Positions 54,386 through 62,452 of a stretch of DNA of 64,000 nt are shown piece after piece (within the stretch, counting starts at the first letter, position 1; every line of letters starts with the position of its first letter). The stretch covers positions 2,790,992 to 2,854,991 of the forward strand of contig NZ_CP132333.1 in the NCBI RefSeq assembly GCF_030758935.1, read 5' to 3'. The position numbers were made by a program, and so were the translations under genes. The notes beneath the pieces were generated by a model. It did not search any database. It saw only the letters and a program-made list of their open reading frames with translations, and was not told the DNA's origin. Source of the stretch: Geothrix sp. PMB-07 (lineage in GTDB: Bacteria; Acidobacteriota; Holophagae; Holophagales; Holophagaceae).

Positions 54386-54598
54386 GTGCCACAGCGGATC
54401 TGAACCGCACATGATCGGTTCATCGCCAATTGAACGATTTGTCAGGTTTTTATCCTTTGGAATTGCCTTCATCAAATTCTCAGTCTTGGCCCAGGCCCAT
54501 CCACTGCTATTCTTGGACTGAGTTTGTCGTCCTTGCGGTTCCGCAGGGGCGACCTTTTCATATCGGCCCACCTGCGTCCCCCCGCACCTGGAGGATCC

Positions 54599-55909
54599 GT
54601 GTCCCACCTGCTCTCTCCCGAGACCCCAGCCTTCGCCGTACCTCAGGCGAACCTCGTCCCCGTGAGCGATCACCTGGGTCATATGGCGCCCATTCCGGCG
54701 TCCCGGATGTTCCTCATCAACAAATCGCTGAAAGTGTTCCAGGAGAAGCAGCCGGGTGTGCCGGTCTTCGACGCCAGCCAGGGCGATGGCGGTGCCTCGC
54801 TGCCCGGCGTGCCCGAAGCCCTATTGGATCGCGCCTTCGACCTGCAGAAGCAGCACGGCACCGCCTACGACATGCCCTTCGGCACCGAGGCCTACCGCAA
54901 GATCGTGGCCGAGTCCTACTGGAAGCTGGCGCCGGACACTGGCTGGGGCACAGCGAACGTCATCGGCACCCAGGGTGGCCGCGACGGTCTGCAGAAGGCC
55001 TACCAGGCCATGCTGGCCCTGGGCCACGGCCGCCAGGGCGATGTGATCGTGGTCAGCCGCGTGCCCTGGATCAGCTACAACTGGGGGCCGTATGGCATCG
55101 GCGCCAACGTGATGTGGGCTCCGGGTCGCGCCGAAGAAGGCTGGGCTTATTCCGAAGACGGCATCCGCGCCTGCGTCACGGAGGCCGCCAAGACGGGCCG
55201 CAAGGTGGCGGGCCTCGTCATCACCAGCCCTGACAATCCCACGGGCCAGACGCTCACCCTGCAGCGCCAGATCGAGCTCGCCCGGGCGGCGCTGGAGGCG
55301 GGCATCGCCTTCGTGCTCTTCGACTGGATGTACCACGCCGTGGGCGACGATGAGCCCTACGATGTGAACGTGCTGCTGCGCGCCTTCGAGCCGGAGCTGC
55401 GCAAGCGCCTCATGGTGCTCGACGGCATCACCAAGAGCCTGGGCGGCTCCAACATCCGCAATTGCCACCTGCTGGCCGATGCGGAGGTCACCAAGACCAT
55501 CGTGGCCCAGGCTTCGCACACGGTGATCCCCTCCTTCTTCAGCCTGGCCGTGGCCATGGCGGCCTACGAGAAGGGTCTGCAGGTCGCCGCCGCGCCCATC
55601 GTCGGGCCCTGCCGCACCAGCCGCGCCTGGATCCGCGAGTTCCTGAAGACCCAGGGCCGCACCCACATCATCGGCCAGGGCTACTACGCCTTCATCAAGG
55701 TGGCCGATGCGCTGCAGGCCAAGGGCTGGGCCGACTCCGAGCCCCTGGGTCAGCACCTGGCCGAGAACCATGGCGTGGCGGTGGTGCCCGGCGCCTTCTT
55801 CAGCCCCTATGGCGCGGAGTGGATCCGCTTCTCCTATGCGACGCCCGTGGAACGCACCCAGGGCGCGGCGACTCGGCTGATCGATGCGTTGAAGGCCCTT
55901 CAGCAATAA
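54599..55909 (+). CDS. PLP-dependent aminotransferase, class I/II
   Basis: 436 residues from GTG 54599, with GGAGG four bases upstream; the frame is open further up but without a site. Fold-type I: GTQGGRDGLQKAYQAM, VVSRVPWISYNWGPY, VITSPDNPTGQTLTL, aspartate in FVLFDWMYHAVGDD, and PLP lysine in LDGITKSLGGSNIRN. The substrate is not clear. It has its own structured leader. It is followed, across a repeat, by the ligase-peptidase fusion, so a shared role in amino acid or peptide metabolism is possible. Confidence 0.85.
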   Translation: MSHLLSPETPAFAVPQANLVPVSDHLGHMAPIPASRMFLINKSLKVFQEKQPGVPVFDASQGDGGASLPGVPEALLDRAFDLQKQHGTAYDMPFGTEAYRKIVAESYWKLAPDTGWGTANVIGTQGGRDGLQKAYQAMLALGHGRQGDVIVVSRVPWISYNWGPYGIGANVMWAPGRAEEGWAYSEDGIRACVTEAAKTGRKVAGLVITSPDNPTGQTLTLQRQIELARAALEAGIAFVLFDWMYHAVGDDEPYDVNVLLRAFEPELRKRLMVLDGITKSLGGSNIRNCHLLADAEVTKTIVAQASHTVIPSFFSLAVAMAAYEKGLQVAAAPIVGPCRTSRAWIREFLKTQGRTHIIGQGYYAFIKVADALQAKGWADSEPLGQHLAENHGVAVVPGAFFSPYGAEWIRFSYATPVERTQGAATRLIDALKALQQ

Positions 55910-55922
55910 ATGACAAAAGGAT

Positions 55923-56004
55923 TCACCACCAAGACACGAAGACACCAAGAACTGATGAAAACAGTCTTTTGGTTTTTCTTGGTGCCTTGGTGTCTTGGTG
56001 GTGA
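55923..56004. repeat. Inverted repeat, CACCAAG word (copy G)
   Basis: The left arm TCACCACCAAGACACGAAG then ACACCAAGAA (to 55951) pairs with the right arm (55976-56004) at about 27 of 29 positions, loop 24 nt. The word CACCAAG recurs three times per arm. The gap is between the aminotransferase and the fusion gene; the fusion gene's ATG lies 35 nt beyond. Confidence 0.85.
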
Positions 56005-56039: not shown

Positions 56040-58856
56040 ATGTTCGATCTGAATGCCTTCGTCGAGAAGTTCCAGCTGGCCCGCCAGACCGCGCTGGAGA
56101 CCCGCCCCTCCGGCGGTCTCTGCGGCCTGGAGCTGGAGTGGAACCTCATGGATCCCCAGTTCCGCCCCCTGCTCACGGTGGGCACGGGGCCAGACCGCAT
56201 GTCCTTCGTGGACCACCTGCGTGCCAAGGTGCTCGCGCCCTGGACCGAGGAATACCACCAGCTCGAAGTCTTCCACTGGATGATCGAGTTCGTCACCAAG
56301 CCCTACCACACGCCCAGGGGCGCCGTGTACGAGGGCCGCCTGCTGGAAGGCGCGCTCATCAACGCCCTGGCCAAGGCGGGCCGCGCCTTCGGCGAGCCGC
56401 TCCACTACTGGCACGGCAACCTGCTCGTGCTGCCCAAGATCGGGCCCGACTGTGTGCCCGAGTCCTGGCACCTGGCCAAGCGCCGCTACCTGCAGCGCTG
56501 CGTGGACATGTACGGGACGGAGCTGGCCACGGCCGGCACCCACTCCAACCTGAGTCTGCCGGAGCCCATGCTGGCCTGGGACTTCATGCACCTGAGCGCC
56601 GCCGAGCGGGGCGACATCCACCTGGACGACTACAAGAACCAGGTCTACATCACGGGCACGCGGCTCATGCGCGCCTTTGCGGCCGTGTTCATCGCCGCCA
56701 GCGCCAGCACGCCCCTGCAGGCCTCCGAAGAGGACGGCAAGCCTGTCGTGCGCCTCACGCCCTTTGAATCCGTGCGCAACCTCACCTTCCCCAACCCGCC
56801 CGCGCTGGATGTGCCGGACCTCAACCGCAGCCACCCGGATTACCTGCGCCTGTCCTACGAGCTGGTGCGCAGCGGCGTGCGCTTCGGCAACAACAACTGG
56901 ATCCCGGTTCGCGCCCGCTCCCAGGCCGAGCCCGTGGAGCGCCTCATCCAGGTCACCAGCGACCAGCTGCATGACATCTACGCCCGCGGCCTCTTCGCCG
57001 CCGGCGAGACGCGCAACGTGGAGGACATGGCCGCCCAGATCGAGCGGCAGAACCTCTTCGCCCGCATCGACCTGCCCATGGCCCGCGTGGAAGTGCGCAC
57101 GGACGACCCCTGCCACGACCTGGCCCTCGATGTGGCCAACCTCACGCTGAAGCACCTGCTCCTGCTCCGCTTCTACGCCGATCCCGACTTCGCCCGTGGC
57201 TTCCGCTACGACGCCGAGGACATCAAGCGGGCCCGCCGCAACGAGAACCTGGCGGCCAAGGAAGGTCTGCGCGCGATCATCGAGGATCCCCTCACCGCCA
57301 AGCCCATCGCCTTGTCGGCGTTCCTCGACTGGACGCTGCAGCAGATGCGGCCGATGGCCGAGGCACTGGGCCTCTGGGACGACCTGCAGCCCCTGCGCGA
57401 CCTCGCCGCGGGCGCGCCCAGCACCGCCGAGAAAATCCGCCAACGCCTGAAGGCCAAGCTCGGCAGCTCGGACATCGTGCCGGCCGACCTGCTGGTGGAC
57501 CTGGCCGAGGCCCGCAAGGAGCAGGTGCGCAGCGATGTGGAAACCATCACCGCCCACCTGTCAGACCTGGGCGGAGAACAAGGCAAGCTGCGCGACTTCG
57601 TGGAGCATGCGCGGGATGAGGTGCACCTCGATCCCCAGGCGCCGGTGCGCTTCCAGCCCCGGCCCGAGGCCCTGGTGGAAACGGAATACGCCGACAAAAC
57701 GGCCGAAGTGCTGGATCTCTCCCAGCGTCTGGTGCGCATCCCCAGCGTCACCGCCTGCCCCCAGGAGCGGCTGCCCGAGGTGCACCGCGCCGCCACCTTC
57801 GTCTACGACTACCTCCGCAACCACGGCGTGCCCGTGCGCACCTTTGACGCGGGCCCCTTCCCGGCCGTGTTCGCCCATTTCCCCGGCGGCGAGCACGCCC
57901 CCGCCATGCTCTGCGGCCACTTCGATGTGGTGGAACCCGAGCCCGATGACAGCCAGTTCGAACCCAAGATCGAGGGCGACTACCTCTGGGGCCGCGGTGC
58001 CGCGGACATGAAGACGGTGGTGTCCACCTATCTGGTGTGGATGAAGGACACGCTGAAGAAGGGCGCCCCCTACCCGCCCGTGAACCTGCTGCTGCTCGGC
58101 AACGAGGAGAACGGCGAGCAGGAGCCCATGGGCACGCCCCACGTACTGAAGGTGCTCAAGGAAGAAGGCCACGGCTACGAGCCCTCCTTCCTCATCGCGG
58201 GCGAACGCACCGGCGAAAAGGGCACCGAGCTCTGGGGCGAGGTCTGCACCCAGAACCGCGGCGTGCTGCGCTTCGAGCTGGTGGCCCACGGCACCCGGGG
58301 CCACAGCGGCCTGGTGGGCGGCGCCGATCTCACGGAGCGGCTGCTGAGCGCCCGCGAGGCCCTGCGTGAGCTCTTCGCCAAGCACCTCACCCTGAAATCG
58401 GCGGACGGCTGGCAGTCCCTGGCCCGTTTCGCATACATCCAGGTGGGCACGCCCGGCGTGTTCAACATCACGGCGGATCGCGGTGCCCTGGGCGTGGAAA
58501 TCCGTCCCATCCCGCAAGATGACGTGTCGAAGCTGCGGGCCGAGATCGAAGCCCTCGTGGCCGAGCGCCAGCTGGAGTTCATCCCTTCCGCCTGGGAACC
58601 CGGCGTGGCCTGTGATCCCGAGAACCCCTACCTGAAAGCCTTGCTGGCAGGCATCACCGCCGCCGGTGGGGATGTGCGCATCGGCCGCAAGGGCGCCGGC
58701 ACCTCCGCGCGTTTCGCGCCGGGTGGGCAGGCCGTGGTCTGGGGCCAGACCGGCATCGGCCCTCACGCCGCCGGCGAGCGCCACTACATCCCCAGCGTCG
58801 ATCCCTACTACCGGGCCTTGAACGCCTTCGCGGCGCAGCTTCTCAGCACAAAATAG
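56040..58856 (+). CDS. Fusion of glutamate-cysteine-ligase-like domain and M20 metallopeptidase
   Basis: 938 residues from ATG 56040, with GGAG upstream. About 1-420 is a GCS2-type carboxylate-amine ligase domain (GLCGLELEWNLMD, FHWMIEFVTKPYHTPRGAVYEG, GTHSNLSLPEP, RNLTFPNPP). A helical linker follows (about 420-545). About 545-938 is a full M20 peptidase: CGHFDVVEPE (H near 626), WGRGAADMKT (D near 655), GNEENGEQEP (E near 688), GERTG (E near 721), GPHAAGERHY (H near 908). All five metal ligands and the catalytic glutamate are present. It would join making and cutting of amide or peptide bonds in one protein. The product is unknown. Confidence 0.85.
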   Translation: MFDLNAFVEKFQLARQTALETRPSGGLCGLELEWNLMDPQFRPLLTVGTGPDRMSFVDHLRAKVLAPWTEEYHQLEVFHWMIEFVTKPYHTPRGAVYEGRLLEGALINALAKAGRAFGEPLHYWHGNLLVLPKIGPDCVPESWHLAKRRYLQRCVDMYGTELATAGTHSNLSLPEPMLAWDFMHLSAAERGDIHLDDYKNQVYITGTRLMRAFAAVFIAASASTPLQASEEDGKPVVRLTPFESVRNLTFPNPPALDVPDLNRSHPDYLRLSYELVRSGVRFGNNNWIPVRARSQAEPVERLIQVTSDQLHDIYARGLFAAGETRNVEDMAAQIERQNLFARIDLPMARVEVRTDDPCHDLALDVANLTLKHLLLLRFYADPDFARGFRYDAEDIKRARRNENLAAKEGLRAIIEDPLTAKPIALSAFLDWTLQQMRPMAEALGLWDDLQPLRDLAAGAPSTAEKIRQRLKAKLGSSDIVPADLLVDLAEARKEQVRSDVETITAHLSDLGGEQGKLRDFVEHARDEVHLDPQAPVRFQPRPEALVETEYADKTAEVLDLSQRLVRIPSVTACPQERLPEVHRAATFVYDYLRNHGVPVRTFDAGPFPAVFAHFPGGEHAPAMLCGHFDVVEPEPDDSQFEPKIEGDYLWGRGAADMKTVVSTYLVWMKDTLKKGAPYPPVNLLLLGNEENGEQEPMGTPHVLKVLKEEGHGYEPSFLIAGERTGEKGTELWGEVCTQNRGVLRFELVAHGTRGHSGLVGGADLTERLLSAREALRELFAKHLTLKSADGWQSLARFAYIQVGTPGVFNITADRGALGVEIRPIPQDDVSKLRAEIEALVAERQLEFIPSAWEPGVACDPENPYLKALLAGITAAGGDVRIGRKGAGTSARFAPGGQAVVWGQTGIGPHAAGERHYIPSVDPYYRALNAFAAQLLSTK

Positions 58857-59228: not shown

Positions 59229-61103
59229 TCAGAAATCCAGGTTCTCGGTCAGCCGGGTGCCATCCTTCTTGAAGGCCGCCAGGAAGCGGGTGATGCGCCG
59301 CTCGGCTTCGCCGAGGCTTTCCACGCCCAGGTTGAGGTTCAGCAGGTCCACATACCAGGGGGCCTTGAGGTCGCTCTGCACGTAGGTCTGCACGATGGCG
59401 CGGGCGATGGGCAGGGTGGTGTCCTTGGAATCGTCATGCACGTCGCGATTGCTGGCCTTGCGGAGCTTGGCGTATTCCTCTTCCAACAGCCGAGCAAACA
59501 GGGCCGGAGTGAAGGCGTCCCCGGCGGCACAGCCGGTCTCGGCATCGGCCTCGGTCAGCACCGCGCCCTTGTGGATCCATTCCCACAGGATGGAGAGGCG
59601 GATCTCGCCGGTGGCCATGTCCTCCATGAGGTAGAGCACATCGTCGTTACCGAAGAAGTCCGCGGGCTTGAGGGCTGCCGCCTGAAAGCCGCGCAGGAAG
59701 GCGTTGCCGTACTGCAGGGCCACGGAAAGCAGGTCGCGGGCGCCCGCGATGGTGCGCGGCGCGGGCTCCAGCTGCATGAGGCCCGCCGCGTCCTCCGCGG
59801 TGTAGGTGAGGGCCGGGAAAGCCCGCCCGGCCTGGTTGTCCTGGCCCACCTGCTCCCACACGGGACGGACGATGTGGACCATTTTCCAGTGGGCCACCCA
59901 CTTGCCCGAAGCCCCCTCGCGCTGCTCGCGCTCGGCGCCCGCCACCGCCTTCTTCATGCTGGCGGAAACCCCGGCTTCGGAACCCACGGGAATGTTGGGC
60001 TCCATGCCACCCTGCCAGAGGGCGAAGCGGCCATTGCGGTCGGGCGTGTTCATGGCCCGGCGCACGCGGTCCTCATAGACCCGCATGTAGCCGTAGGTCA
60101 TGGTGATCGAGGTGATGTTGGGATTCACGAAGGCCTGGTCCCAGGCCAGAGCATCCGAGACGCTGTTGATGTAGTCCCAGCGGCCGGTGTTGAAACCCAC
60201 GAAGTGCGGCGACAGCGCGGCACGGATCTCCATGAGCTGGAAGCACTGCTCGATCTGCTCCACCAGCACGTAGCACTTGATGGCGCCCACAGGCAGGCCC
60301 AGGTGGTTTTCCAAAGCCAGGATGAAGCTGTTGAAGCAGGCGGCATCCTCGGCGGTTTGCGTCTTGGGCAGGTAGAGGACGATGCTGCGGCCCGCGGCGC
60401 GCAGGCGCTCCTGGTTGTTCACCACGTAGAGCACCATGTCGGCGATGGAGGCGGAGAAGCCGTGGCCATCCAGGCGGATGTGGCGGTCCTCCAGATGCAG
60501 GCCCCGCACCCGGTAGATGATCGTGGTGAAGTCCAATTGCTGCCGCCAGTCGGCGATGATGGGATGACCGAAGAAGCCCTGGGCCCATTGGTTCATCTCG
60601 CGGGAGACGTCTTCCGCCACCTCCAGGAAGAGCGGGCTGCGCGCGATGGCGAGCTTGAGGTTGCGGTGGTTGTCCAGGGACATGGTATCCACCTGGCCCA
60701 GGGCATCCTCGCCGTCGAACATCCAGCCGTCGGCGCCGGAGAGCAGCGCGTAGGCCGCGTTGCGGATGCCGGAGCGTACGTCAGAACGCGGCTTGGTGGC
60801 CGGGCCTGTGCCCTGGATCCACTGCCGCTGAAGGTCGGCCGGGATTATGGCCCCGTCGAAGTTGCCGGCGCGGGCGTCGGCGACGGTGATCTGGGTACCG
60901 GGAATGAGCGAGGCAGGGTCCAGGAAGGCGATGCGCTCGCCGTTGTCCGCGCGGCGTTTCCGCCGGGCCGTGCGCTGGGCCATCAGCTCGCGCCGCCGCG
61001 CATCCAGGGGCGCCAGGGCCTCCAGAGCGCGGAGCACCTCGGGCGTGTAGACGTCGGCGTAATCCTCCAGAATCCCCGAACGGAATTCGAGGTCGATGCT
61101 CAT
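59229..61103 (-). CDS. Malate synthase
   Basis: 624 residues, GGGAGG five bases before ATG 61103. TIM-barrel malate synthase with DGWMFDGEDALGQ, TGRWDYINSV, TMTYGYMRVYEDR, WVAHWKMVHIV and the catalytic region YLMEDMATGEIRLSILWEWIHKG (catalytic Asp near 492), matching the MEDAATAEI of isoform A (AceB). About 90 residues longer than E. coli AceB. It condenses glyoxylate and acetyl-CoA to malate. No isocitrate lyase in the window; glycerate kinase lies just upstream on the same strand. Confidence 0.9.
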   Translation of the reverse strand: MSIDLEFRSGILEDYADVYTPEVLRALEALAPLDARRRELMAQRTARRKRRADNGERIAFLDPASLIPGTQITVADARAGNFDGAIIPADLQRQWIQGTGPATKPRSDVRSGIRNAAYALLSGADGWMFDGEDALGQVDTMSLDNHRNLKLAIARSPLFLEVAEDVSREMNQWAQGFFGHPIIADWRQQLDFTTIIYRVRGLHLEDRHIRLDGHGFSASIADMVLYVVNNQERLRAAGRSIVLYLPKTQTAEDAACFNSFILALENHLGLPVGAIKCYVLVEQIEQCFQLMEIRAALSPHFVGFNTGRWDYINSVSDALAWDQAFVNPNITSITMTYGYMRVYEDRVRRAMNTPDRNGRFALWQGGMEPNIPVGSEAGVSASMKKAVAGAEREQREGASGKWVAHWKMVHIVRPVWEQVGQDNQAGRAFPALTYTAEDAAGLMQLEPAPRTIAGARDLLSVALQYGNAFLRGFQAAALKPADFFGNDDVLYLMEDMATGEIRLSILWEWIHKGAVLTEADAETGCAAGDAFTPALFARLLEEEYAKLRKASNRDVHDDSKDTTLPIARAIVQTYVQSDLKAPWYVDLLNLNLGVESLGEAERRITRFLAAFKKDGTRLTENLDF

Positions 61104-62327: not shown

Positions 62328-62452
62328 TTCACCACCCTATTTCATCTTGTCTCGCGTATCGGCATGGCCGATACCGAGAAGGCACCAGGGCACCAAGAAT
62401 CACCCAAAAATCCGTTCGCTTTTCTTGGTGGCTTGGTGCCTTGGTGGTTTGC
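62328..62452. repeat. Inverted repeat, CACCAAG word (copy H), interrupted by an insert
   Basis: The right arm (62422-62452) carries TTCTTGGTGGCTTGGTGCCTTGG-type words. Its left partner is split: TTTCACCACC at 62327-62336 and AAGGCACCAGGGCACCAAGAA from 62379, with 42 foreign bases between. The loop is about 21 nt. Same words as copy G. Confidence 0.82.
62337..62378. mobile_element. 42-nt palindromic insert within repeat copy H
   Basis: Splits the left arm exactly between CACCACC and AAGGCACC. It contains the perfect palindrome GTATCGGCATGGCCGATAC (62356-62374), extended by TCTCG/CGAGA on the outside. It looks like a second, smaller palindromic element that landed in the first. Mobility is inferred. 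Confidence 0.55.

Follow-up and report, generated by a model that had tools for sequence, protein, structure and literature searches.

Results

A ligase-hydrolase fusion encoded beside an aminotransferase

We analysed a stretch of 64,000 nucleotides (the window, to which all coordinates refer) from Geothrix sp. PMB-07, whose genome is a single contig of 4.24 Mb. On the forward strand an open reading frame runs from an ATG at 56040 to a stop codon that ends at 58856 and encodes one protein of 938 residues, as the initial annotation had read it. That annotation saw an amide-forming, ligase-like domain joined to an M20 peptidase, and both domains and their active-site residues are confirmed here. 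The features of the locus are:

54569..55909, + strand: partner aminotransferase, PLP fold type I (PF00155, 3.5e-20; same-strand neighbour of the fusion in 76 of 84 loci)
56040..58856, + strand: GCS-M20 fusion gene, 938 aa (fusion kept in the 80 loci read)
56040..57644, + strand: predicted N-terminal GCS-like (carboxylate-amine ligase) domain, residues 1-535 (NCBIfam matches of 21 members, fold match, mapping of GshA motifs)
57684..58853, + strand: predicted C-terminal M20 metallohydrolase, DapE/2rb7-like, residues 549-938 (Pfam, PDB sequence and fold matches, invariance)

The partner gene ends 130 bp upstream of the fusion; its start codon is uncertain, and the conserved part begins at about 54626. 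Between the two genes (55927-56000), and again at 62383-62446, lie imperfect inverted repeats built on CACCAAGACACCAAG, a repeat found 8 times in the window where 0.13 occurrences are expected; they look like a REP-type intergenic element. Downstream of the fusion, on the reverse strand, a malate-synthase-like protein of 624 aa is encoded (59229-61103; 244 bits, with the malate synthase A cut-off at 594), a gene kept near the fusion in Holophagaceae loci only.

Both halves of the fusion keep their catalytic residues

The assignment of the N-terminal half emerges from the family rather than from the single sequence. Alone, the window protein scores 12 bits against PF04107 (GCS2), under the gathering cut-off of 21 bits, and a PF04107 search of the whole host genome gave no match. 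In an NCBIfam scan of the family the YbdK model was matched by 21 of 21 members, the PRK13517 glutamate-cysteine ligase model by 20 (best 2.3e-10) and the cyanobacterial GshA model by 19 (best 8.9e-11). The equivalog cut-offs of GshA and EgtA are missed by a wide margin (15-21 bits for the window ligase domain against 371-425), and hhalign comparisons of the family with a single GshA or YbdK sequence, where one side is only a single sequence, gave low probabilities of 8% and 66%. An AlphaFold model of residues 1-533 (pTM 0.88, mean pLDDT 81) has its best fold matches among YbdK-type proteins (1tt4, 5.5e-11; 1r8g, 1e-10), followed by GshA from Francisella (3nzt, 1.8e-9) and E. coli (2d32, 9e-8); Dop and PafA are further structural matches, weaker than those of GshA and YbdK.

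The catalytic positions of this half (E31, E33, E83, H168, R246, E351 and R353) are all invariant, as judged for both halves in an alignment of 26 members and in another of 11 that includes sequences of greater divergence. E27/E29 of E. coli GshA correspond to E31/E33, E67, which binds the amino group of glutamate, to E83, R235 to R246 and E328/R330 to E351/R353, several of these pairs, including E67/E83 and R235/R246, having been matched by eye. GshA H150 (in SGVHYNFSLP) maps to H168 (AGTHSNLSLP), and the GxHxNxSLP and VEVRT motifs resemble GshA at least as much as YbdK. GshA Q144 aligns with A163, hence this glutamine is not kept; the divergence of this half is too great for acceptor residues to be read from known GCS enzymes. 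Judged by sequence and structural model, residues 1-535 are predicted to be a divergent ligase-like domain of the GCS superfamily. The earlier label of a GCS2-type domain is right about the superfamily, but "GCS2" is loose, as the Pfam GCS2 threshold is not reached on the window sequence.

The C-terminal half is more readily recognised. PF01546 matches at 3.2e-16 (60.3 bits, cut-off 24.6) and the dimerisation domain PF07687 at 22.4 bits (cut-off 21). The metal ligands and the catalytic glutamate pair, H627, D629, D656, E689, E690, E722 and H909, are all invariant, and the nearest PDB entries are 2rb7, an uncharacterised M20 protein from Desulfovibrio, and DapE. The DapE equivalog model is matched at 90.8 bits, below its cut-off of 284. 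Residues 549-938 are thus best read as a complete M20 metallohydrolase of DapE type, and the claim of a complete M20 domain with all metal ligands is borne out by Pfam and the invariant ligands. For the two halves and the partner alike we claim membership at the superfamily level only, the equivalog cut-offs of GshA, YbdK, DapE and GntC all being missed.

The fusion is sporadic and kept in the 80 loci read

Relatives were read in the best 80 of 112 candidate stretches from other genomes. Among these 80, copies from Geothrix and other Holophagaceae are 82-95% identical, one other Acidobacteriota genome has a copy at 75% and one Aminicenantes genome at 61%, and copies from Anaerolineae and other Chloroflexota lie at 56-67%; additional Acidobacteriota copies show about 46-51% identity. 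Recurrence of the fusion in Geothrix, in other Acidobacteriota and in Anaerolineae, at 48-95% identity, shows that it is no artefact. A search with the GCS domain gave 38 matches in 396 Acidobacteriota genomes, including every same-genus genome in the table, and 12 in 400 Chloroflexota genomes, some matches being truncated at contig ends. No stand-alone ligase domain was found among these roughly 800 genomes; a lone weak match in one genome (G172) is a separate GCS-like protein of 23% identity. A plasmid collection searched with the ligase half gave no match. The initial annotation had named two findings that would speak against its reading, the loss of ATP- and substrate-binding residues from the ligase part and orthologues split into separate GCS and M20 loci. 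The key residues are all kept, and split orthologues were absent from the roughly 800 genomes searched with the GCS domain. At one locus (L045) the place upstream of the intact fusion where the aminotransferase is expected is taken by a broken additional copy of the initial part of the ligase domain (236-517).

An open reading frame of 1385 residues at another locus (L167) joins aminotransferase, GCS and M20 parts, and we rejected it as a three-way fusion. The C-terminus of the aminotransferase carries on in a different frame and reaches a stop of its own shortly before the ligase begins, and the long frame carries no evidence for such a fusion because a frameshift near the aminotransferase end joins two abutting genes.

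The aminotransferase is a constant and co-inherited partner

Conservation of the neighbouring PLP aminotransferase was a check that the initial annotation had proposed, and the neighbour turned out to be real, of fold type I and with the canonical residues. In 76 of 84 loci it is the gene immediately upstream of the fusion, in the same orientation, and the remaining 8 lie less than 2 kb from a contig end on the upstream side. The gap to the fusion is at most 200 bp in 60 loci and at most 30 bp, or an overlap, in 13; in one (L168) the aminotransferase stop overlaps the fusion start codon by 4 bp (ATGA). Y81, N204, D233, Y236, K270, R278 and R401 (P0002 numbering) are invariant and include the PLP lysine, the Asp, the Asn-Pro, the Tyr and the alpha-carboxylate Arg (R401). 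The NCBIfam model of GntC is matched by 15 of 15 partners and is the top NCBIfam match of the window's own aminotransferase, at a score (91 bits, cut-off 415) barely above that of ordinary aspartate aminotransferases. No C-S lyase model occurs among the listed matches of the partner.

The pairwise distances of fusion and aminotransferase show a correlation of 0.976, and the trees of the two proteins are broadly similar; the two co-evolve. In both trees the Geothrix pair falls within a clade dominated by Chloroflexota and away from the remaining Acidobacteriota pairs (families f5 and f6), a position that suggests joint transfer of the two genes. Of the 400 Chloroflexota genomes, 14 have the aminotransferase, namely all 12 with the fusion and two others (G487 and G654), both draft assemblies, in which no fusion was detectable. 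Two Chloroflexota genomes (loci L208 and L209) carry the partner aminotransferase without a fusion nearby; the copy in L208 adjoins an imidazolonepropionase-like gene on the opposite strand.

Other neighbours vary with the lineage. A proB-proA pair lies upstream in the Holophagaceae group only, a LysE exporter gene adjoins the fusion at two loci (L031, L070), argG/argH lie near it at three (L060, L068, L072), and an APS kinase and a PHP-domain gene follow a few kb downstream in three Acidobacteriota genomes of family f5. These lineage-specific neighbours yield no single functional reading. Besides the aminotransferase, no neighbour common to all lineages was found among the loci read, and the pair therefore looks self-contained.

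Discussion

A proposed two-gene module for amide-protected transamination

The constant aminotransferase neighbour in unrelated bacteria points to a small-molecule pathway that has not been described. We propose a two-gene metabolic module in which a glutamyl group is attached to an amine and later removed, with the aminotransferase as third activity, and we give this reading a probability of roughly 0.4. What we observe are two domains with intact catalytic residues, their constant pairing with the aminotransferase and the co-inheritance; glutamate as the donor, the order of steps and a single compound for all three activities are what we infer from them. The N-terminal domain would join a carboxylate to the amine of a small molecule at the expense of ATP, the donor most likely being the gamma-carboxyl of L-glutamate. 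The partner would interconvert the alpha-keto acid and alpha-amino acid forms of this compound or of its precursor, and the M20 domain would later hydrolyse the amide, so that the product is released and the glutamyl group recycled. In this proposal ligase and hydrolase share one chain because they would open and close the same sequence of tagged intermediates, comparable to DapD-DapC-DapE and LysX-LysJ-LysK. Synthesis and editing of a gamma-glutamyl amide by the fusion would be plausible, and there is precedent for GCS-like ligases encoded beside glutamyl-removing enzymes (PMC2588565). The proteins of the pair are 56-69% identical between Geothrix and Chloroflexota; a pair that is compact, strongly conserved and sporadic fits one specific metabolic product.

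Some points count against the module. Being part of one chain does not oblige ligase and hydrolase to act on a common substrate, the aminotransferase occurs without the fusion in G487 and G654, and the chemistry does not fit lysine or arginine synthesis, as discussed below. Both domain families were already known, while their fusion with a co-inherited aminotransferase appears to be undescribed: in the part of the literature searched we found no paper describing a GCS and M20 architecture, in line with the initial annotation, which knew of no characterised protein of this kind. A more specific version, with free glutamate as a removable amino-protecting group around transamination, put on by a GCS-fold ligase that is fused to the deprotecting hydrolase, and with the two genes exchanged as one module between Chloroflexota and Geothrix, is tentative and on balance somewhat doubtful. 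Both halves look catalytically intact from their sequences, and the pathway should thus be approachable with two purified proteins.

Alternative readings

The ligase might instead make gamma-glutamylcysteine or another dipeptide as an end product, such as a redox buffer or osmolyte, with the M20 domain as a recycling dipeptidase and the aminotransferase merely supplying an amino acid. The closest models of the ligase half are indeed GshA and YbdK, the latter with gamma-glutamyl:cysteine ligase activity according to the title of a reference cited in PMC2588565; a separate PF04107 protein was not found in the host genome, and the M20 family includes dipeptidases such as carnosinase. However, permanently fused synthesis and degradation would amount to useless cycling unless regulated, a single constant aminotransferase partner is left unexplained, and GshA glutamine 144 is not conserved, and we consider a dipeptide pool rather unlikely. 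The same ligase product also appears in a sulfur-transfer cassette after the logic of ergothioneine or gliotoxin, where the GCS half would form gamma-Glu-Cys, another enzyme would conjugate it, the M20 half would strip the glutamyl group and the PLP partner would be a C-S lyase freeing the thiol. In ergothioneine synthesis EgtA is a GCS-type ligase and EgtC an Ntn-type amidohydrolase, and together with EgtE these are the same three kinds of enzyme. EgtE is described as a PLP-dependent C-S lyase (PMC4493562). The APS kinase and PHP genes downstream in the three f5 genomes would fit as well. The partner, however, keeps all aminotransferase residues including R401 and matches GntC and aspartate aminotransferases best, and a conserved conjugating enzyme was not found nearby, which makes this cassette quite improbable. 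It is even less probable that the GCS-like half is a hydrolase, as Dop is, or a scaffold, and that the M20 half alone acts: the weaker Dop and PafA matches and the low similarity to characterised GCS enzymes speak for it, but the metal and ATP residues of the GshA core do not vary, and GshA and YbdK match far better than Dop.

A ligase, a transaminase and an M20 hydrolase together represent the chemistry of acyl-protected synthesis, and for this reason we tested an alternative lysine (DAP) or ornithine/arginine route in which gamma-glutamyl replaces succinyl or acetyl. The chemistry agrees step by step and the M20 half is DapE-like. Searches of 21 fusion-bearing genomes gave no ArgJ in any of them and no DapH or plant-type DapL above cut-off, an apparent gap at first sight, and the argG/argH and LysE neighbours mentioned above would suit such a route. 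Yet Geothrix has a cluster of lysC, dapB, dapA, dapD (confirmed by its THDPS domain), a DapC-like aminotransferase and lysA, its dapF adjoins an M20 gene, and its arginine set comprises argC and an M20 gene, to which the set of a relative adds argB and a carbamoyltransferase. Those lysine and arginine genes of Geothrix that had no family search, and the LysW-type genes of Anaerolineae, were assigned by inspection of their sequences. DapB is missing from 24 of 32 fusion-bearing genomes and DapF from 12 of 21, so tetrahydrodipicolinate is no general substrate. The five Anaerolineae arginine/lysine clusters inspected hold a LysW-type set, and one complete chromosome (G017) has the fusion and no ArgC/LysY match above cut-off. 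We reject replacement of a lysine or arginine pathway in view of the other routes in Geothrix, the missing DapB and DapF and the LysW sets of the clusters inspected; as a general role of the fusion the idea is largely refuted, and we regard such a route as highly improbable.

Two side observations can be added. A 350-aa protein with no family assigned (MRIH.DK..SVTRNL...) is encoded among the arginine genes of the host genome and a relative (L128, 7828-8877; L136, 10496-11548), and tandem carbamoyltransferase genes about 1-1.6 kb apart occur in the fusion-bearing Chloroflexota genomes G006, G007, G008, G012, G018 and G574.

Comparison with known systems

With GshA and YbdK the fusion has in common the fold and the ELE, E67-like, GxHxNxSLP, SxR and VEVR motifs. 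It differs in falling far under the curated cut-offs, in an identity of about 13-16% in fold alignments, in the attached hydrolase and in an acceptor site that is not kept. Similarly, the M20 half shares the whole domain, the dimerisation insert, the metal ligands and the catalytic glutamate with the DapE/ArgE branch (2rb7 and DapE structures), whereas it scores 91 of the 284 bits set for DapE, is attached to a ligase domain and has other partner genes. The partner aminotransferases can be set beside the PLP enzymes GntC (guanitoxin; arginine-derived), MppQ and VioD, although the GntC model is matched far below its cut-off.

EgtA, EgtC and EgtE likewise combine a GCS-type ligase, an amidohydrolase and a PLP enzyme. 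In contrast, the hydrolase of the fusion is of M20 and not Ntn type, its PLP partner is of the aspartate aminotransferase type, and EgtB and EgtD were not seen in the loci read. The DapD-DapC-DapE and LysX-LysJ-LysK systems perform the same trio of amine acylation, transamination and M20-type hydrolysis. Unlike these, the module proposed here would take free glutamate as its acyl donor by way of a GCS fold, and two of its steps are fused; in Geothrix it coexists with other routes to lysine and arginine, and elsewhere DapB is mostly absent. If glutamate indeed serves as a removable tag, the module would be a small-molecule counterpart of amino acid biosynthesis on the carrier LysW.
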